Virus record (IMG/VR): IMGVR_UViG_3300045135_001679
Location: 1-34,010 of that record
Strand: one strand, 5' to 3'
Length of the DNA stretch: 34,010 bases
Source: a virus
Of the stretch, positions 6,684-21,550 are shown piece by piece. Under the pieces are notes generated by a model. That model saw nothing but the letters and a program-made list of their open reading frames with translations. It was not told the DNA's origin and ran no database searches. The position numbers and the translations under genes are program-made. Position 1 is the stretch's first letter. Every line of letters begins with the position of its first letter.

Positions 6684-6691
6684 TATTTATA
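6684..6691 (-). promoter_or_regulatory. T4-type late promoter -10 box upstream of gp8
   Basis: The minus strand reads TATAAATA, a perfect match to the T4 late-promoter box used by gp55 sigma with gp33 and the gp45 clamp. It ends 26 bases before the gp8 ATG and overlaps the gp6 stop codon. It would allow separate late transcription of gp8 and the giant downstream gene. Confidence 0.7.
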
Positions 6692-8489
6692 CTGTATCCG
6701 TGATAACTGCCCTAGCAGAAGACGCAGACCGATCAAACGCCAATACGTTATTTCGTCTAGCATTAACTGTTGCCTGGTTCGCAGGTATTGCAGTGATTCT
6801 CAAATAATCACCTGATATCAAAGTACCCGTAAATGAACTCAATGTAAGTTTACCTTCAGCAGGAATATATTCACCAATGTTGTCAAGTAAAGGAAGACCT
6901 GTTGACAAATCAATGACTTCAATAACGGTAGAATTCAAGCGATTACGTAAGAAGCAGACACTTGATCCAATGTTGAAGTTCTCACTTCGAATGGTGTACG
7001 TATCATCTTGAGCCGATTGAATTGCAGTTGGGAAAATGATATCATACGCCACAACGCCCGTAACGGGTGTAAATCGATACTGCATTTTAATTTCTGCACG
7101 AGATGAAAGAATAGATGGTTCAGCATCATCAATGTCTGTCAGAAGATTTGATCGTCTAAATGACTTATCAAATCCACCAAGTTCATCCTCAAAATATTGT
7201 GCCACTGTCGTGTTGACCAAATTCTCGATTGCAGTCTGTGTTGAACTTGTCAGGTTTGGATTCCACTGGAATATCACACTGACTTCTAGATATGTTGTAA
7301 TAGGATCGGTGAATTCAACATTGAATGATGCTACAGATAAATTCTTCGCAAGGGCTTGAATATTAGACTTTGTTTCTTGTTGTACAACTAGATCGGGCGT
7401 ATTGAAAACAACTGACAGAAAGACTGTACCGTACTTGGGTGGTAAATTATCTTCGCCACCCCACGCCTTGATATCTGAAATCGAATTGCCATAGTTGCGT
7501 AATGCAAGAGACGCATAGTCTTGTGCGGTCACCATTCGATTCTGAGTGGCATACATGTAAGGAGCATTCTTGCGAATAGATTCGATACCCTCTTTGTATG
7601 CACCCGAATGAGCGACTGTGACAGTAACAACATTCAATGTCAATTCTTCGTTCTCTGAATCTAACACACGATCTAGTGGTGTGAATGTTCTAGCACCGTT
7701 CGCTTCTGGTCCTGCAACCTTGTCGTAGATAACTTCTATTTTATTACCTGAAGAAGGAAACTGACCAAGTCGAGCACCATTACCGAACGTTAATTCGTAT
7801 TGTCCGTTGGGTGTTTCTTTCACTGTAAATATTTTTGAGTTCTTGTCAATCGAAGCCAGATCGTTTATGTTCGTATACACATCATAGAAAGCCGTTGACT
7901 GGTCTGCATACACACGCACCTGAACTGTTGACAAATCCATGTTGTCAGTTGGTATCACATAAGTCTCGTTCTCACCAACAGGTCCTGCAATGAACACTTT
8001 ACGTTGCTCTTGACCTTCATGAATCACTACGTTTTGGTTTTCGCCAAGTCGAAAGAAGTATTGGTTCGAACCGTTGTTTGTGGCGATCAGTGTCTTACGT
8101 GTTTTGAAAGTATAACTCTTACCATTAACCGTAGAGGTAAAACGAAAGCCTGCGGGCAAAGTCATTGTCGATGGATTTAAAGGGTTTGTCACATATAAGT
8201 TGATCGTAGAGCAAGCGGCTCGACGTGAGCCTACTGTGTAACCCAAAGCACCCGCTAAACTAACAAGAGATGAACGAAGTTGAGCAGTCGAAAGAAACGA
8301 CTCGTTCAATGCAAAGTTTGCCAACAAAGCGTTGTAGTGGGTGTTATATGCAAGAACATCTAAAAGACTTGACAAAGCACTTGCTTCAAAGTTATAATCA
8401 GCAAACTCTGGTGTCTGTGCTAAAAAAGACTTTAGATTATTCTTGATGTTATCAAAATCAAGATCTGTTGATCTGATAGTTGTTGCCAT
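6687..8489 (-). CDS. 6: Baseplate wedge subunit gp6
   Basis: The 600-residue protein is close in length to T4 gp6 (about 660) and belongs to the gp6/J-like baseplate family. The N-terminal region is the most recognisable part: a TDLDFDNIKNNLKSFLAQ start, then DVLAYNTHYNALLANFALNE and a helix ending in LAGALGYTVGS, all typical of T4-like gp6. In the T4 baseplate, gp6 dimers form the inner ring that ties the six wedges together. The ATG at 8489 has a strong ribosome site, GGAGAT, about six bases upstream. gp25 lies immediately upstream, and the spacing indicates co-transcription. Confidence 0.93.
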   Translation of the reverse strand: MATTIRSTDLDFDNIKNNLKSFLAQTPEFADYNFEASALSSLLDVLAYNTHYNALLANFALNESFLSTAQLRSSLVSLAGALGYTVGSRRAACSTINLYVTNPLNPSTMTLPAGFRFTSTVNGKSYTFKTRKTLIATNNGSNQYFFRLGENQNVVIHEGQEQRKVFIAGPVGENETYVIPTDNMDLSTVQVRVYADQSTAFYDVYTNINDLASIDKNSKIFTVKETPNGQYELTFGNGARLGQFPSSGNKIEVIYDKVAGPEANGARTFTPLDRVLDSENEELTLNVVTVTVAHSGAYKEGIESIRKNAPYMYATQNRMVTAQDYASLALRNYGNSISDIKAWGGEDNLPPKYGTVFLSVVFNTPDLVVQQETKSNIQALAKNLSVASFNVEFTDPITTYLEVSVIFQWNPNLTSSTQTAIENLVNTTVAQYFEDELGGFDKSFRRSNLLTDIDDAEPSILSSRAEIKMQYRFTPVTGVVAYDIIFPTAIQSAQDDTYTIRSENFNIGSSVCFLRNRLNSTVIEVIDLSTGLPLLDNIGEYIPAEGKLTLSSFTGTLISGDYLRITAIPANQATVNARRNNVLAFDRSASSARAVITDTV

Positions 8490-9104: not shown

Positions 9105-9836
9105 TCAATCGTCAGAAAGAATTTCTAACAATTCGTTTTTGGTTTGCAGTTGACCATTATACAAAGTCTCAAGGTTGTACTTGTATGAAACTTTGTAGTC
9201 TGCTGGTACTTCTGGTGTTTCAACCACTATCTGACAAGTCAATTCACCTGACGGATCATATGTGTCATAGTCAAGTGTGAGTTTGTCATAGTTGATATAA
9301 TCTTTCCAATATACCGCCAGATCAAACGTCTTCTGGGGATCTGTTTTGCCATTTCGATCAATGAGTTGATAAACGACTGCTTGACCTTTTCGTCGAAGTG
9401 CTAGAATATCTGAAGGCATTTCACCAATGTAGTTTGGATAACGAACAACCCATCCCGTTCCGCTTTTGCCATACGTTGCTCCAGGTCTTTCGCTCGCTAG
9501 AAACTTCGCAAATCCTTCATCGAATGCTGGCTTTTCTGTGACTTCAAACTTGGGATTTGGTTCATACACACCTTCACTCACAATCAAACGATGCTGTGAG
9601 TACTCTGCCATACCGACAATCGATTGTAGAATCTGAGCATGAAGTGTTAGATTTCGTGCAAGTTGTAATCGATCAACTGAACCCGTAAAACTCTCATTGT
9701 ACAGTTTCTCTAATTGTGTTCGAGATCCTTTCGCACCCAAAAACTTAGCCATAGAAATTCCTGGACCAAGTTTCGTTGCCGAAGTAATCTCGTTGATGAG
9801 ATTAGGATCGTATTTAGGATCTATCAATATATTCAT
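9105..9836 (-). CDS. Uncharacterised protein in baseplate operon
   Basis: A 243-residue protein that I cannot assign to a family. The N-terminal half is mixed helical (LQLARNLTLHAQILQSIVG). The C-terminal half is beta-rich and acidic, with YWKDYINYDKLTLDYDTYDP and a final ELLEILSDD. There is no signal peptide, membrane segment or catalytic motif. Its ATG overlaps the stop of the needle gene by four bases (ATGA), so translation is probably coupled. Its place between the gp5 needle gene and gp25 makes a structural or assembly role in the baseplate likely, but that rests on position only. Confidence 0.8.
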   Translation of the reverse strand: MNILIDPKYDPNLINEITSATKLGPGISMAKFLGAKGSRTQLEKLYNESFTGSVDRLQLARNLTLHAQILQSIVGMAEYSQHRLIVSEGVYEPNPKFEVTEKPAFDEGFAKFLASERPGATYGKSGTGWVVRYPNYIGEMPSDILALRRKGQAVVYQLIDRNGKTDPQKTFDLAVYWKDYINYDKLTLDYDTYDPSGELTCQIVVETPEVPADYKVSYKYNLETLYNGQLQTKNELLEILSDD

Positions 9837-11287
9837 TTTCTATTCACCTTAAATCTCTTGCTTCGATTATCTGCGGGGTTATTACCCAACAATTCAACAC
9901 CAAATCTTATCGTACCTTTCTTGCTGGCTGATCGACCAATATTCTGTGGTATCGTTTTCTTAAATTTAGAATTCAAAAGACCGTTTTGAACTAGATACGA
10001 AGTAAACGTCTCGTTGTTTCTATTTACAGGGCTCCGAATTTTCGATCGAATCTCGTGAATGTCGGGATCGAAGTTAAACAACTCTTCGTAATCATCAGAC
10101 TTGAGTATCTTGTCTTTGAGTTTCGGATCAATCGCTACATTACGCACACCATACGAACTCGTTGACAACATTAGTTCGACAATAGGTGGTGCAGGTAATG
10201 GTGCAGATTGTGTTATCTGAGGATACGGCATAACTCCTGGAGTTGGCTCAGGTGTTGATACAGTTGTCTTCTTCTCTTTGTTGGCGATCAATGCTTTACC
10301 GGCACCTTTCGCATACTCTGCTGTTGTACATGTCATCGAGTAGTCTGCATGAAACGCTTCAGTAGCACGACCAACAAGAGCACCATAGAATGTCGAGACG
10401 TTTGTTTTCTCACCAGGAAGACCACCGTATGTTTTGCCGTAGTAGTCAATTGCGGGTCCACCAATCACACCTTTGTGACCAATGATACCTAAATGTCGAG
10501 CAGTGATACTTGCTGTAGGTGCCGCCGCTACCCATTCTTCAACTGCTGTCGTAATCAGTTTGCCGCCTGTTGTGATTTCAATATCATCTTCGACGAAATG
10601 CTTTGCTGTACCTTTGATGATCCAGTTCGCATCTTCGAGAACAGTTGTCGTTGCCATACCCACGACTTGCTCACCACGAGCGCCTCGAATCGTATAGTTC
10701 TGATCACGGTTTACTGTTTTGGTGTGTCGTCCTTTGATCTCTTCGTCTTTATCTCCTGCGACACGTAGATTATAATTCCCACCAACATCAACGTTGAAAT
10801 CGCCAGAAACAGTGAGATTGAGATTGCCTTTGTAAACAAGATTACCTTCTCCTTCGACAATTACTGTCTCATCGCCAGAAACTACCTCAATCTTTTGTCG
10901 TTGTGATGAAATAACAACACTGCCGTCTGCACGTAGTTCCATGCCAGCGCCAGTGCGATGCTTGATTAATATACGTTCACCACCGGGGGTGTCATCTATT
11001 TCAACAACATGACCCGATGGTGTTTCCGAAACTTGGTTGTGTGGATATTGAGAAGGCTTTTGCTCAGGCAAATCAAAGTTGACACCGAACTCACTTCCGC
11101 CTAAAGTAAGACTGTTGATCTTTGCACCCATCGCCGCTTTGTTGATGCTCGTGCCAAAGAAGTAATCACGCTTGGGATATTCACCAGTCGCATCAGCAAA
11201 ACCGTCGGCGGGTACACCTTCAGTTTCTTCTTGACCTTGAGAGATTATAAGATCACGAAACTTTAAATTGTCTATACTATTAGTCAT
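9833..11287 (-). CDS. 5: Baseplate hub needle, gp5 C-terminal beta-helix protein
   Basis: This 484-residue protein corresponds to the C-terminal part of T4 gp5. Near residue 30 it has DATGEYPKRDYFF, matching the DPTGQYPRR linker after the OB fold in T4 gp5. It then has YPHNQVSETPSGHVVEIDDT (residues 80-100) and GGERILIKH, matching the T4 segment before the needle. Residues about 130-240 contain repeats such as GNLNLTVSGDFNVDVGGNYN, the octapeptide-like pattern of the triple beta-helix. After the helix comes a Pro-rich stretch and a basic C-terminus that T4 gp5 lacks. It has no OB fold and no lysozyme domain: these functions lie in the two upstream genes. It is translationally coupled to the amidase gene by a four-base overlap. 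Confidence 0.88.
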   Translation of the reverse strand: MTNSIDNLKFRDLIISQGQEETEGVPADGFADATGEYPKRDYFFGTSINKAAMGAKINSLTLGGSEFGVNFDLPEQKPSQYPHNQVSETPSGHVVEIDDTPGGERILIKHRTGAGMELRADGSVVISSQRQKIEVVSGDETVIVEGEGNLVYKGNLNLTVSGDFNVDVGGNYNLRVAGDKDEEIKGRHTKTVNRDQNYTIRGARGEQVVGMATTTVLEDANWIIKGTAKHFVEDDIEITTGGKLITTAVEEWVAAAPTASITARHLGIIGHKGVIGGPAIDYYGKTYGGLPGEKTNVSTFYGALVGRATEAFHADYSMTCTTAEYAKGAGKALIANKEKKTTVSTPEPTPGVMPYPQITQSAPLPAPPIVELMLSTSSYGVRNVAIDPKLKDKILKSDDYEELFNFDPDIHEIRSKIRSPVNRNNETFTSYLVQNGLLNSKFKKTIPQNIGRSASKKGTIRFGVELLGNNPADNRSKRFKVNRK

Positions 11288-13131
11288 TTTCCAAACCTTG
11301 TTTTAACATAATCAGGTACATCAAATCCTGGATCGATATTTTCACCTGTGTCATCTATATCATTGTGACCGAGAATTGAAATACCTGGATACACTCGATA
11401 TATTGCACGACAGAAGTGGTCGAATGTATTCAACTGTGCTCGTGTAAGAGATTGAGCAGATAGAAAGTTCTCGCTGTTTGGTGTTCCTGTTGGTACATTA
11501 ATGCCGCCGATAAAAACAACACCCAAAGACTTCTCATCGAATGATAGTGGCGATGCATGTTCACCTTGTATGTTGACTGGTCGACCACGTTGTAATGATC
11601 CGTCTCGACGTATTACATAGTGATAACCAATGCCATCTAGACCCGCTTCAATATGAATCGCATTGATCTCTTCTGAGCCGATATTTTTATTAGTATGTGT
11701 CTCTGACCAATGAACAATGACCTTGTCAACCTCACGTGAGATAAATTGTATCTCGGCTTGCAGTTCTTCCACAGACGAAACATAAGGAAAGACAGGATCA
11801 TTTTGACCTTTCTGCCATTGTTCTTGATATGATCCTATTTCATACGGATCGGGAAACACCTGCTGAGAAACAGGAGGTCGAGTCGAATTGAAGATAGTGG
11901 TGTCAATAGATTTGAGAAATGCTTTGATTACATTATAGTCTTTCTTGGTCAAGTTGTACAGTAATTTAACTGCTTCACTCTCTTCTGCTTTATCGCCTTG
12001 AGACAGATTGATAACACGATTGACTTCTGCATCTGTTATAAATTTTGGTGATACAAAGTTTCGAATCTGACCTTGGACATCTGAGAGAGTCTCGGCACTA
12101 ATACCTTGAACCACGCCAACTTCAGAATTCTTGGCAACACGAGTTGTCACTATCGATTCGTAGTTACTCACTTCTGTAGAGAATCTACTTCGGCGATCTG
12201 CTTGAGTTTGAACAGACTCGATCACTTGATCAGGGTCTTTGCCGCCTGAAAGATTTTCCACATCGGCTTTTGCGGCCTCAAGATTCTGCTTGACTTCATT
12301 TTCTGGCTTGATTAGAACATCTAAGTCAAAGCCAACGTTTGTGCTCAGATTATCAATCATTGCATTGAATTCACCAAGATCTGTTGGACCACTAGATGTT
12401 ACAGTACCATATGTGTATACTAATTCTCCAAGTCCATCGCTGTCTATGTTAGTAATCTTGTTAACAGTTTTGTTGATATCACCACCTGCAAGTATTCCAG
12501 GTAAAACTTTATCAATGAGATCGTCAGTAACTGCCTTGAGTCCGTCTTTCGCCAGATTCTTTAAAGCGTCTGCTCCGCCGAATGCGCCGATCTTACCTTC
12601 GACTAATTCTTTTCCTGCATTCAACAATCCTTCAGGAGAAGCATCTGTGATGATCTTCTGTAAACCTCCAGGTTCAACACCAAGACCTGTAATCTGAGAA
12701 AGAACAGATGCGATTGCCTCTTCGCCTGTAGTGTCTGTTGCTAATGAAGATGCAATAGGAAGAACAACGCCGTTCTCATCAGGCTCACCGAATTGTATTT
12801 CTACTTTTGCACCGAACTTTGATGTTAAGCCAGATAATGCATTGTTGACCATATCGGTCGCCATGTTCTCTAGGCTAGCGGTGTTATTACTGAGTAAACC
12901 TTCAACGGTCTTCTTGGCGTCTTTCAGTTCACCCTTGAAAGCATCGACCTGCTGTGTTAGACTTTCGATACCACCTTGAACTTGACCTGCTATCTGACCT
13001 GCAATGCTCTCGCCTGCATTTGTAAACGCCTGCTTTACTTCTTCTGCGGTCGATTCGATCTTTTCGGTTGATATCGATTTAGAAGCATTCTTTACCTGAG
13101 TTTTTAATTGTTCTAGTTGTGTTTCAGCCAC
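11284..13131 (-). CDS. Baseplate-associated N-acetylmuramoyl-L-alanine amidase with long helical N-terminus
   Basis: A 615-residue protein. Residues 1-100 are coiled-coil-like (Glu, Lys, Gln, Ala rich). Residues 100-460 are unassigned. Residues about 468-615 form a T7-lysozyme/AmpD-type amidase_2 domain. Visible motifs are VIVHWSETHTN with zinc ligand His474, GYHYVIRRDG (Tyr503-Gly511), GEHASPLSF (His525), SLGVVFIGGI, LGHNDI with His589, and NIDPGF with Asp600 as third zinc ligand. The Lys that precedes the third ligand in T7 lysozyme and AmpD (K-x-C/D) is Asn598 here. The family cleaves the bond between MurNAc and L-Ala in peptidoglycan. Its position between the two gp5 pieces suggests a virion-borne wall-opening enzyme that supplements or replaces the T4 gp5 lysozyme. 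It overlaps both neighbours. Confidence 0.85.
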   Translation of the reverse strand: MAETQLEQLKTQVKNASKSISTEKIESTAEEVKQAFTNAGESIAGQIAGQVQGGIESLTQQVDAFKGELKDAKKTVEGLLSNNTASLENMATDMVNNALSGLTSKFGAKVEIQFGEPDENGVVLPIASSLATDTTGEEAIASVLSQITGLGVEPGGLQKIITDASPEGLLNAGKELVEGKIGAFGGADALKNLAKDGLKAVTDDLIDKVLPGILAGGDINKTVNKITNIDSDGLGELVYTYGTVTSSGPTDLGEFNAMIDNLSTNVGFDLDVLIKPENEVKQNLEAAKADVENLSGGKDPDQVIESVQTQADRRSRFSTEVSNYESIVTTRVAKNSEVGVVQGISAETLSDVQGQIRNFVSPKFITDAEVNRVINLSQGDKAEESEAVKLLYNLTKKDYNVIKAFLKSIDTTIFNSTRPPVSQQVFPDPYEIGSYQEQWQKGQNDPVFPYVSSVEELQAEIQFISREVDKVIVHWSETHTNKNIGSEEINAIHIEAGLDGIGYHYVIRRDGSLQRGRPVNIQGEHASPLSFDEKSLGVVFIGGINVPTGTPNSENFLSAQSLTRAQLNTFDHFCRAIYRVYPGISILGHNDIDDTGENIDPGFDVPDYVKTRFGK

Positions 13132-13991
13132 TACGTCATCACCTCTTCATAAGCCCGTTCCGCCAGTCTCTTTGTATTCTGTGGTATTTTCAGATACAAT
13201 CTATTTACTACTTCACTGGCATCGGTTAAATTTTGTGTGGCAAGAAGAGCATTATTTGCAGAACCAAACTTATTTCTCAATTCAAATAAAACATACTGTA
13301 ACTGAACAGAGAATAATTTCCAGTCAGTTGCTGGCACATACGAGACGGCAAATTGCAATAGACCTGCATAACGACTACCAATCTTACCATCGACCGACCA
13401 TTTTGCAATACCTGTTTTGGGTTTGCTATTGAATGTGACAAACGATGATGCACCTTGTAAAGCGCCAGCCAATGCGGCAGAGTGTATCAGATTGTAACCG
13501 TTATCAATGAAGAACTTCATCGCTTGTTGTCGTCTTAGGTTTACGTCAGCATTTGGAACGTCATCATCGTAGAGTCTTGTTATGACAACATTCTGAATTC
13601 GATTCTGATCATAAACAAACTTATCAATGCTGTTCAATCGTCTACCGCTCTGTACTGTTGTTGGCAGTTCAATACGAGGTAATGAACCTAACACAAGTGG
13701 AATCTGAGATGCGATACCGTCAAGAAAAACACCGAACACAAAAGCGCCTGTAGTCATCTGAGGAATACGACCGATACCAGAAGATCCGCCTTCAGTGGTT
13801 GGCACAATGACTTGTGCCCATGGTAGATCCTTTTCAGGAATGTCATCGGTCTTTTCACTGTGTACCCCCAGAATACGGACTTTCACACGACCTTCAAGAC
13901 CAGCAGGGGGTGTGGCGTTGACGACATAGCCCAAAAACCAGCGTACATCATCACCGTAATATTCTTTTTGTATGGGTCTCAATACATTCAT
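13131..13991 (-). CDS. 5: Baseplate hub gp5 N-terminal OB-fold protein with degenerate lysozyme-like domain
   Basis: A 286-residue protein. Residues 15-107 match the OB-fold of T4 gp5: WFLGYVVNATPPAGLEGRVK, then LPWAQVIVPTTEGGSSGIG, then FGVFLDG and PLVLGSLP. Residues about 152-275 resemble phage tail lysozyme domains (goose/SLT-type helical fold): a QQAMKFFIDNGYN helix, SAALAGALQGASSF, YAGLLQFAVS, an LQYVLFELRNKF helix and ASEVVNRLYLKIP. Where such enzymes have the catalytic Glu (pattern GNLxxES), this protein has GALQGAS (residues 176-182), so it may be inactive. The beta-helix needle is absent and is encoded two genes downstream. Its ATG overlaps the stop of the gp27-like gene, consistent with the gp27-gp5 hub complex. 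The OB assignment is firm and the lysozyme-like assignment is tentative. Confidence 0.85.
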   Translation of the reverse strand: MNVLRPIQKEYYGDDVRWFLGYVVNATPPAGLEGRVKVRILGVHSEKTDDIPEKDLPWAQVIVPTTEGGSSGIGRIPQMTTGAFVFGVFLDGIASQIPLVLGSLPRIELPTTVQSGRRLNSIDKFVYDQNRIQNVVITRLYDDDVPNADVNLRRQQAMKFFIDNGYNLIHSAALAGALQGASSFVTFNSKPKTGIAKWSVDGKIGSRYAGLLQFAVSYVPATDWKLFSVQLQYVLFELRNKFGSANNALLATQNLTDASEVVNRLYLKIPQNTKRLAERAYEEVMT

Positions 13992-19146: not shown

Positions 19147-19839
19147 ATGGCATTACCATTACTAAATGATACACCAAAATATGAGATGAAAATACCTTCG
19201 ACAGGAAAGAAGGTTAGGTTTCGACCTTATCTTGTCAAAGAAGAAAAGATTCTTATGATAGCGGCTGAGTCAAAAGATATACACCAAATTACTAGAGCAG
19301 TTGTTGACACTATTGTAACATGTTGTGACGGAAAAGTCAACAAAAAAGATTTGACAACATTTGATGTTGAGTATATGTTTCTGCAACTTCGAGCAAAGTC
19401 AGTAGGTGAAAATATCTCGCTAAAGATCAATTGCGAAGAATGTGGTACACCCAATGACCAAGAGGTCAATCTTGATAGCATTACCGTTAATGTTGCGAAA
19501 AAAGACAATATCATAAAATTGTCCGACAAGATTTCGGTTGAGATGTCATATCCTAGTTATGAGATGATGAACTTTGATGAGGATGCCAACGAAGCAGGCT
19601 TTATGATTTTAGGTAAGTGTATCAAAGCAGTAATCACTGAAGATGAAAGAATCGATCTGGCGGATGAAACTGACGAGAGCATTAAAAACTTTATTGAGTC
19701 GATGACACAAGGTCAGTTTGAAAAAATAACAAGTTACATGCAAGATATACCAACAGTGAAGCATGATATTAATTTTACATGCCAAAGTTGTAATCATAAT
19801 AATAACATACTTTTACAAGGAATGCAAAGTTTTTTTTAG
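19147..19839 (+). CDS. 26: Baseplate hub assembly protein gp26 / tail assembly chaperone
   Basis: A 230-residue protein of the T4 gp26 (T4_baseplate) family, with the typical start ALPLLNDTPKYEMKIPSTGK and FRPYLVKEEKILMIA. It has two CxxC pairs, Cys96/Cys99 (NCEECG) and Cys212/Cys215 (TCQSCNH), which look like a zinc site. Ribosome site GAGGA lies eight bases before the ATG. The gene ends in Ser-Phe-Phe-stop, encoded by a run of eight T directly before TAG. A -1 shift there would extend it into the next frame (see frameshift site). It sits immediately before the tape measure, as tail assembly chaperones do in other tailed phages. In T4, gp26 is needed for hub assembly. Confidence 0.87.
   Translation: MALPLLNDTPKYEMKIPSTGKKVRFRPYLVKEEKILMIAAESKDIHQITRAVVDTIVTCCDGKVNKKDLTTFDVEYMFLQLRAKSVGENISLKINCEECGTPNDQEVNLDSITVNVAKKDNIIKLSDKISVEMSYPSYEMMNFDEDANEAGFMILGKCIKAVITEDERIDLADETDESIKNFIESMTQGQFEKITSYMQDIPTVKHDINFTCQSCNHNNNILLQGMQSFF
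19830..19836 (+). other. Probable programmed -1 ribosomal frameshift site (T_TTT_TTT) at the end of gp26
   Basis: In the gp26 frame the codons read AGT TTT TTT TAG. With the last T of AGT they form the heptamer T_TTT_TTT, a perfect slippery X_XXY_YYZ sequence, immediately before the stop. A tandem -1 slip gives TTA as the next codon and then enters the downstream frame (GTG TGC CTG), which is open for 65 codons. The fusion would be about 296 residues. I see only a weak GTG/CAC stem downstream, so stimulation may come from elsewhere. Confidence 0.65.
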
Positions 19840-20036
19840 TGTGCCTGTCTCACGATAGTCTAGCAAATTATTTCAAGACGAATTTTTTGCTACTCAGGTA
19901 TCATCATTATGCATTAACAGAGATTGAAAACATGATGCCATGGGAGAGAGAGGTTCACTTGATTCTGTTAATGCAAACTTTAGAAGAAGAAAAAGAGGCT
20001 AAGAAGAAAGCTAATGGCAACAATTACACTGGATGA
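19839..20036 (+). CDS. Second frame of the gp26 unit (gp51-position; probably made as a gp26 frameshift fusion)
   Basis: A 65-codon frame that begins at the last base of the gp26 stop with GTG, a poor stand-alone start: the nearest SD-like AAGGA is about 17 bases upstream. The product is helical, with LANYFKTNFLLLRYHHYALT and MMPWEREVHLILLMQTLEEE, a compact pattern like the second frame of tail assembly chaperones (lambda GT type). In T4 the hub gene set includes gp51, and this gene occupies a comparable place, but I see no sequence evidence for homology. It overlaps the tape-measure start by 23 bases. Independent GTG initiation remains the alternative. Confidence 0.72.
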   Translation: MCLSHDSLANYFKTNFLLLRYHHYALTEIENMMPWEREVHLILLMQTLEEEKEAKKKANGNNYTG

Positions 20037-21516
20037 TGTTGTACTAGAACAGATGCAAACCAATCAGACTCTTGAGCGTATCGAGGGTCCTCTTATTGGC
20101 ACCTTGAAAAGCCTTGATCGTAACCTTGACAATTTCATCACACTTTGGTTCGCCAGTAAGATGGATGAAATGGAGATGATGCGAGAACGTATTTCTGGTG
20201 ATAGTGGTCCTGATGTTGATGGTGGTAGTGATAATGATAAGGATAAAGATACTGGCAAGTTGAAGTTGTCAGGCTTGGCAATGCTGGCGGCAGGATTGAC
20301 AGGCGCTGTTGCTGGCTTTGCCGCAGGTATTGCTGATACACTTTGGACTCTTCTAAAAACATTTAAAGCAGATTTTGCCGCTAGACTTGCTCGATGGGGA
20401 CAAGCGATCAAGACGTTCTTCTCTTCAGAAGGTGCTCTTGGTAGAGCATGGCAGTCAATCAAGAATGGCTTTAAACCTGTAACAGACTTCTTCACACGAA
20501 TGGGCAACTTCTTTAAGACCGAAGGTGCGTTTGGTAAAGCGATAGGTAAAGTCGCAAAGTTCTTCAAGCCGATTACTGATTTCGCCAAATCCTTTGGTCG
20601 AATCTTTAGTAAGTTCTTTGGTTTCTTTCGTATCATAGGTCGAATCTTCCTACCCATCACAGCCGCATTTGAAGTAATTAGTTCGCTCTATAATGAGTTG
20701 ACCACAATGGCACCTGGTTCAGACTTTCTTGATACGTTCTATGCTGTAGCACGAGGTATCGTTAAGGGTCTTGCCAACATTGTATTAGTGCCACTCGACA
20801 TGTTGAAAGATGGTGTCTCATGGCTCATGGAAAAACTGGGCTTTGAGAACTTTGCAAAACTTCTAGACAGTTTCTCTTTCTCTGATACGTTTGGTCAAAT
20901 TATTGATTGGTTGTCGAACTTCAGTGAAGGTCTACTTCGTGGTATTGGGGCGGCGGTTAAAGCGGCACTGAGATTTCAGAATCCAATCGAGGCTTTCAAG
21001 ACAGCGTTTAATCATGCCTTTGAAGGTGGCAGTGGAGGTACTATGCCTGAGACTTCAGAACCCCCAGGAGAAGTCATCGCATCTGGTCCTCCATCAGGAC
21101 AAGGTAGACGTGCAAGACGTGAAGCGTCTCAAAATGCAGAAGGCGAAATGACAGTAGCAGATGCGCTGAATGCTGATCCACGATACAATAACAGATCAAG
21201 TGCCTCAAACAACATTGAAGGTAATAGTACTTCTGGTACGTCAGCAAAAGAAATGGTTGAGACTATGAAACGAGGGGCGCAAAGACAGACGATTCGAGAA
21301 AGAATGAGAGGTGACACTACACGAAGCACAATTGCTAATAAGATAGGTGAAGATACTGTTCTTGAATCACCTACTATTAATGTGATCAATCAGTCAAACG
21401 TCAATGCACCGACTTCGAATGTAACGGCTAACTCTGGTGGCGGAGATCCTTTCTACACACCAAGTCCTGTTACTAGTAATGGTAGTAGAGCAGACGCTTA
21501 CTCTATGGCTTGGTAA
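20014..21516 (+). CDS. 29: Tape measure protein, gp29-like
   Basis: A 500-residue protein, near the size of T4 gp29 (590), placed directly after the gp26 unit. Residues 1-60 are helical and residues 63-80 form an Asp/Gly-rich linker. Residues 84-114 are a hydrophobic Ala/Gly segment (LAMLAAGLTGAVAGFAAGIA). Residues about 115-350 are long amphipathic Phe/Lys-rich helices, including a 31-residue repeat (see repeat entry). Residues 350-500 are low-complexity Ser/Asn/Thr/Gly, ending with TINVINQSNVNAPTSNV. This architecture is typical of short myovirus tape measures, which set tail length and exit with the DNA. Assignment rests on position, composition and repeats; I see no diagnostic gp29 motif. 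Confidence 0.75.
   Translation: MATITLDDVVLEQMQTNQTLERIEGPLIGTLKSLDRNLDNFITLWFASKMDEMEMMRERISGDSGPDVDGGSDNDKDKDTGKLKLSGLAMLAAGLTGAVAGFAAGIADTLWTLLKTFKADFAARLARWGQAIKTFFSSEGALGRAWQSIKNGFKPVTDFFTRMGNFFKTEGAFGKAIGKVAKFFKPITDFAKSFGRIFSKFFGFFRIIGRIFLPITAAFEVISSLYNELTTMAPGSDFLDTFYAVARGIVKGLANIVLVPLDMLKDGVSWLMEKLGFENFAKLLDSFSFSDTFGQIIDWLSNFSEGLLRGIGAAVKAALRFQNPIEAFKTAFNHAFEGGSGGTMPETSEPPGEVIASGPPSGQGRRARREASQNAEGEMTVADALNADPRYNNRSSASNNIEGNSTSGTSAKEMVETMKRGAQRQTIRERMRGDTTRSTIANKIGEDTVLESPTINVINQSNVNAPTSNVTANSGGGDPFYTPSPVTSNGSRADAYSMAW
20416..20601 (+). repeat. Two-copy 31-residue repeat within the tape measure
   Basis: Residues 135-165 and 166-196 of the tape measure align with period 31: FF-x-x-EGA-x-G-x-A, then F-KP-(V/I)-TDF, with EGA at 139-141 and 170-172 and FKP at 153-155 and 184-186. 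It looks like an internal duplication of a helical unit. Confidence 0.6.
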
Positions 21517-21550
21517 AAAAAAGGCGGGATTCTCACCCGCCTCCTGTTTT
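21514..21550. terminator. Bidirectional intrinsic terminator between tape measure and gp32
   Basis: A seven-base-pair perfect stem, AGGCGGG/CCCGCCT, at 21522-21528 and 21536-21542 with a seven-base loop. An A-run (21515-21522) lies on one side and a TCCTGTTTTT tract on the other. On the minus strand it gives a GC hairpin followed by eight U, a strong terminator for gp32. On the plus strand the U tract is less perfect but serves the tape-measure operon. Confidence 0.88.

Follow-up and report, generated by a model that had tools for sequence, protein, structure and literature searches.

A conserved T_TTT_TTN slippery site supports a programmed −1 frameshift joining gp26 to a small second frame in a marine T4-like phage

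Organization of the gp26 junction

How is the small reading frame expressed that overlaps the stop codon of gp26 in a marine T4-like phage, as part of gp26 or as a gene of its own? The question was raised by a window of 34,010 bases, the whole stretch of DNA analysed here, from IMG/VR virus record IMGVR_UViG_3300045135_001679. The window carries a T4-like tail module. Its − strand encodes baseplate wedge and hub proteins; on the + strand lie genes for head closure, a DNA end protector and a tail tube-like protein, then gp26 with the small frame behind it, and a 500-aa ORF. A single gp26 match was found in the record, which may be a fragment, so that a second copy may lie elsewhere. Parts of a T4 gp5-type hub/lysozyme are split over three − strand ORFs (window positions 9833-13991): 9833-11287 is hub-like, 11284-13131 bears an amidase domain at its C-terminal end, and 13131-13991 is an N-terminal gp5-like ORF.

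The 3′ end of gp26 reads AGT (19828) TTT TTT TAG (19837-19839). As the initial annotation had pointed out, a slippery heptamer, T_TTT_TTT, stands immediately 5′ of the stop. It is of the X_XXY_YYZ type as read in the 0 frame and lies within a T8 run (19830-19837). The −1 frame is indeed open, but from TTA at 19836 it runs for 66 codons, ending at 20036, and not for the 65 first reported; it is already open 31 nt upstream of the gp26 stop. In-frame T_TTT_TT occurs twice in the 32 ORFs of the window (9,359 codons), one copy being the gp26 junction. The second copy lies at codon 21, near the start, of the baseplate wedge gene at 6687-8489 (−).

Table 1. Features of the gp26 junction (positions in the window).
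Feature	Position	Strand	Basis
gp26, short tail assembly chaperone (TAC-N), 230 aa	19147..19839	+	Pfam PF12322, phrog_150, AlphaFold2
SD-like AAGGA, candidate frameshift stimulator	19817..19821	+	8 nt 5′ of heptamer; synonymous recoding test
Slippery heptamer T_TTT_TTT inside T8 run	19830..19836	+	direct reading; conservation; entropy 0
−1 frame extension (TAC-C; homolog of T4 gp51 C-terminus), 66 codons + stop	19836..20036	+	phrog_634; gp51 alignment
Candidate downstream stem, 5′ arm	19841..19847	+	4 nt past heptamer; covariation in window clade
Candidate downstream stem, 3′ arm	19895..19901	+	covariation in window clade
Following ORF (500 aa), probably the tape measure protein	20014..21516	+	weak PHROGs matches, phrog_27688, position

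The pair had been placed directly before the tape measure. The 500-aa ORF does adjoin it, with 23 nt shared with the −1 frame. Its identity is less firm: matches to tape-measure PHROGs are weak (E 1.8e-6 to 1.9e-4), no significant Pfam match was obtained and the Pfam TMP repeat stayed below its cut-off. It is a probable tape measure protein. In some relatives the ORF after the pair is merely about 104-142 aa long. An A8 run (21515-21522) overlaps the stop of the 500-aa ORF.

Conservation of the slippery site

Relatives were collected by three IMG/VR scans with gp26, which gave 9 loci, the best 80 and again the best 80. These listed loci and the window made up 170, with a gp26 end in 169; 152 were unique and 134, including the window, remained after filtering to <80% amino acid identity. 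Being relatives, they are not independent draws. Both best-80 scans used query peptides from roughly the first third of gp26 and therefore did not select for its 3′ end.

Alignment of these 3′ ends, a check proposed in the initial annotation, bore out the slippery site: among the matches listed, T_TTT_TTN was present in all 134 non-redundant loci, and this conservation rules out a chance origin of the heptamer. The probability under codon usage is 10^−27.6 for 80 representatives, an indicative figure only, as it presumes independence. The last base of the heptamer was T in 77 of the 134 listed loci, C in 34, A in 21 and G in 2, and in 131 loci the first heptamer codon lay 6 or 9 nt upstream of the gp26 stop, the distance being greater in the other three. 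The second codon was Leu (TTA/TTG) in 23 of the 134, so it is the nucleotides that are preserved and not the amino acid. In the alignment of listed loci, entropy was 0 at all six Ts, against mostly 1.7-1.9 bits at the upstream wobble columns. The most variable codon position switches at the heptamer from the wobble position of the 0 frame to that of the −1 frame, a rule from which a few columns on either side of the heptamer depart.

In each of the 134 listed loci the −1 frame was open into the same second protein; the lone short one (L022) stops at the end of its contig. Fusions of gp26 and the second part in one frame were found in none of the 134.

The heptamer was also kept in 13 of 17 named phages (cyanophages and phages of Sinorhizobium, Pseudomonas, Stenotrophomonas, Aeromonas and Vibrio). 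It was absent from the remaining four, one T-even phage with a two-gene form, Enterobacter phage VIPECLUMC02, and three phages of Ackermannviridae type. Vibrio phage D528 (L019), Aeromonas phage phiA8-29 (L104) and Vibrio phage 1.255.O (L105) lack T_TTT_TT and have CTTTTC or CTTTTT near the stop. A small −1 frame follows the stop in these three phages, with a TAATG stop-start in two of them, and in this lineage the second frame may be reached by reinitiation or at a weaker shift site. The feature tables of the named phage records L011-L017 and L101-L108 do not join the pair as a frameshift gene; the small frame is entered as a separate gene, often with a late start, or is unannotated.

Homology of the two parts to T4 proteins

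gp26 matched the Pfam family T4_baseplate (PF12322) with an E value of 6.9e-61 (206.2 bits, gathering cut-off 24.5) and phrog_150 with 1.4e-61. The −1 frame matched phrog_634, ‘baseplate hub assembly catalyst’, at 1.7e-22. Neither gp26 nor the small frame nor the 500-aa ORF reached the cut-off of any NCBIfam model.

The AlphaFold2 model of gp26 had a mean pLDDT of 91.1. For residues 1-86 the best PDB match was the HK97 tail assembly chaperone gp13 (2OB9; Z 6.3, rmsd 3.3 over 84 residues), next came YqbN (3KLU; Z 6.0) and the following match had Z 3.0. A Z of 6.3 is moderate, under the level (8) called safe by the comparison tool. By its modelled fold gp26 looks like a tail assembly chaperone, in agreement with the role first suggested for it.

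T4 gp26 and T4 gp51, a short and a long paralog, both match PF12322 and phrog_150, the Pfam family spanning residues 1-206 of 208 in T4 gp26 and 1-201 of 249 in gp51. Unlike T4 gp26, gp51 reaches the last part of phrog_150 and also matches phrog_634, and the −1 frame of the window aligns with its C-terminus. A profile HMM built from 133 computed fusions aligned T4 gp51 straight across the junction. With an HMM of the −1 part alone, run against 14 targets, all six gp51s were matched (E 1.4e-9 to 1.6e-5) and no gp26 fell below E 0.19. In the AlphaFold models the order of elements is alike in gp26 and T4-type gp51, to which gp51 adds C-terminal helices. The gp51 model, with 7 sequences in its alignment, gave no PDB match at Z of at least 5 and did not recover the HK97 chaperone. 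On the gp26/gp51 homology, the fusion HMM and the fold, the window phage appears to obtain from one frameshifted gene the products for which T4 has two separate genes.

Candidate stimulatory elements

The end of the SD-like AAGGA lies 8 nt upstream of the heptamer. Among 80 representatives, AGG/GGA words concentrate at −15 to −10 relative to the heptamer, which is close to the distance at which such elements stimulate −1 shifting in dnaX. The null consisted of 200 synonymous recodings based on pooled codon usage. An SD-like word was present in 73 of the 80, against 68.4 ± 1.8 after recoding, a weak figure as 73 was also the maximum among the 200 recodings. The mean anti-SD pairing energy is the stronger figure, at −5.98 against −4.97 ± 0.13.

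Downstream, a 7-bp stem was 88.1% paired in the clade of the window (12 of the listed loci, support 0.944), with double changes at three of the seven pairs. In the controls, 10 of 500 shuffles matched this number of double changes and slid partners paired at 26-49%. The complete stem was present in 8 of the 133 listed loci examined, all inside the 12-member clade, and its RNAalifold consensus energy was merely −1.3 kcal/mol. There is moderate evidence for a covarying stem, confined to the clade of the window. More generally, 65-nt windows that begin between about +8 and +26 from the heptamer start folded with unusual stability; the mean z was −1.76 at +14, compared with +0.2 to −0.5 for ten upstream offsets (79 of 80 representatives). 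A single downstream RNA structure common to all relatives was considered and rejected, the stem being clade-confined and its consensus energy small. Rfam gave no match within 19600-20200. The SD-like word and the stem are regarded as candidate elements.

Probable frameshifting and its alternatives

Three other explanations were weighed. RNA polymerase could slip on the T8 run and produce mRNAs with one extra U, giving a transcriptional fusion. A run of eight, as in the window, is shared by 57 of the 134 listed loci, but an equal number (57/134) have exactly six Ts, and polymerase slippage usually requires longer runs than that; what is conserved, moreover, is the in-frame T_TTT_TT pattern. We regard this explanation as very unlikely.

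A separate gene started by stop-start coupling is judged highly improbable. Such a start is available in the window, where the GTG at 19839 overlaps the gp26 stop (TAGTG) and defines a 65-aa ORF (19839-20036) in the −1 frame; the small frame had fairly been described as having no convincing start, although a start codon as such is present. At the matching place, ATG or GTG is found in several named phages, and database records show gp51 or the small ORF as a gene of its own. Separate initiation is also possible in the 21 of 134 listed loci with a start codon early in the −1 frame and in the 9 with one upstream. In the other 104, however, no ATG, GTG or TTG exists upstream or in the first eight codons of the −1 frame, so that separate initiation would lose the conserved LSHxxL stretch there. 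The AAGGA, close to the heptamer, ends 17 nt from the GTG, and a coupled start has no need of six invariant Ts.

That a sequencing or assembly indel split one in-frame gene can practically be dismissed: homopolymers are error-prone and a T8 lies at the junction, but all 134 listed loci and 13 named phage genomes show the identical frame relation, whether the run is T6, T7 or T8.

The comparative data all fit, and support, a conserved programmed −1 frameshift joining gp26 to the small frame, as the initial annotation had proposed, with the conservation, the switch of wobble phase and the phrog_634 match arguing for it. It is very probable, in our judgement, that gp26 is TAC-N and that a −1 slip on T_TTT_TTT yields a minor 296-residue TAC-NC. 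Slippage itself and its efficiency we infer. Some ribosomes would slip by −1 on T_TTT_TTT, with both Phe tRNAs re-pairing with UUU, bypass the TAG and read 66 more codons, giving a minor form of 230 + 66 = 296 residues. By analogy with lambda gpG/gpGT, the short and long forms would coat the tape measure and recruit the tube protein.

A wider proposal is put forward tentatively, as somewhat less than an even chance. In the marine clade the invariant U6, an SD-like word that begins 10-15 nt upstream and is kept to a degree not demanded by the protein, and the covarying stem 4 nt downstream may jointly tune the ratio of short to long form to the tail; the T4 lineage may later have frozen this ratio into two divergently transcribed genes.

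Comparison with other tail assembly chaperones

Compared with lambda G/GT, the window has T_TTT_TTN as slippery site, from which that of lambda differs, and a gp26 of about 230 aa, in which the chaperone-like N-terminal domain is followed by a zinc-ribbon-like part. Both would share a −1 slip where the short gene ends and a long minor form; the lambda pair precedes the tape measure gene, and the pair here adjoins a probable tape measure ORF. The lambda features are taken from a 2016 review, in which the G-T frameshift is called conserved in long-tailed phages ‘except T4’ (PMC5009743).

T4 gp26 and gp51 share the PF12322 family with the window, and gp51 holds the C-terminal part found in its −1 frame. 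In T4, however, they are encoded separately on opposite strands, and the 3′ end of gp26 has no slippery run. T4 gp51 is reported, in an excerpt of PMC3004832, to be absent from the particle. Phage 0305phi8-36 likewise has a short and a long paralog, gp143 and gp144, in place of a frameshift, according to the section of PMC2147016 that treats them; as a member of another lineage it provides a precedent for the two genes of T4 but none for the device of the window. Frameshift and two-gene pair together offer a natural experiment on gene duplication replacing a frameshift.

In the excerpted text of Sullivan 2010, gp51 of cyanophage and marine vibriophage T4-likes is about 20% of the T4 length, without the first ~200 residues, and term counts gave no mention of a frameshift for this short gp51 (PMC3037559). 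The short ‘gp51’ is best read as the far end of a frameshift product and not as a truncated gene, the missing part being gp26. Many phage records could be re-annotated on this basis; 739 records match gp26.

Vladimirov and colleagues reportedly found frameshifting kept in several T4-like groups, with T4 using separate genes. Excerpts of citing papers indicate that their study (Vladimirov, Gautam, Davidson 2022, Virology 566:9-15), which is reported to have identified the tail assembly chaperone genes of T4-like phages, deals with the same genes. PMC12846349 credits it with poly-T slippery sites within T4-like TAC-N genes, and PMC10885494 with short and long chaperone genes in some T4-likes. 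In the literature searched, as far as the excerpts go, the T4-like frameshift surfaces only via citations of that study. The view that gp26 may be the T4-like counterpart of G/GT is supported, but the device is of an already known kind, and T4 uses genes 26 and 51 instead. On the word of the citing papers, the poly-T frameshift device is already described for related T4-like phages, of which the window is a well-supported example.
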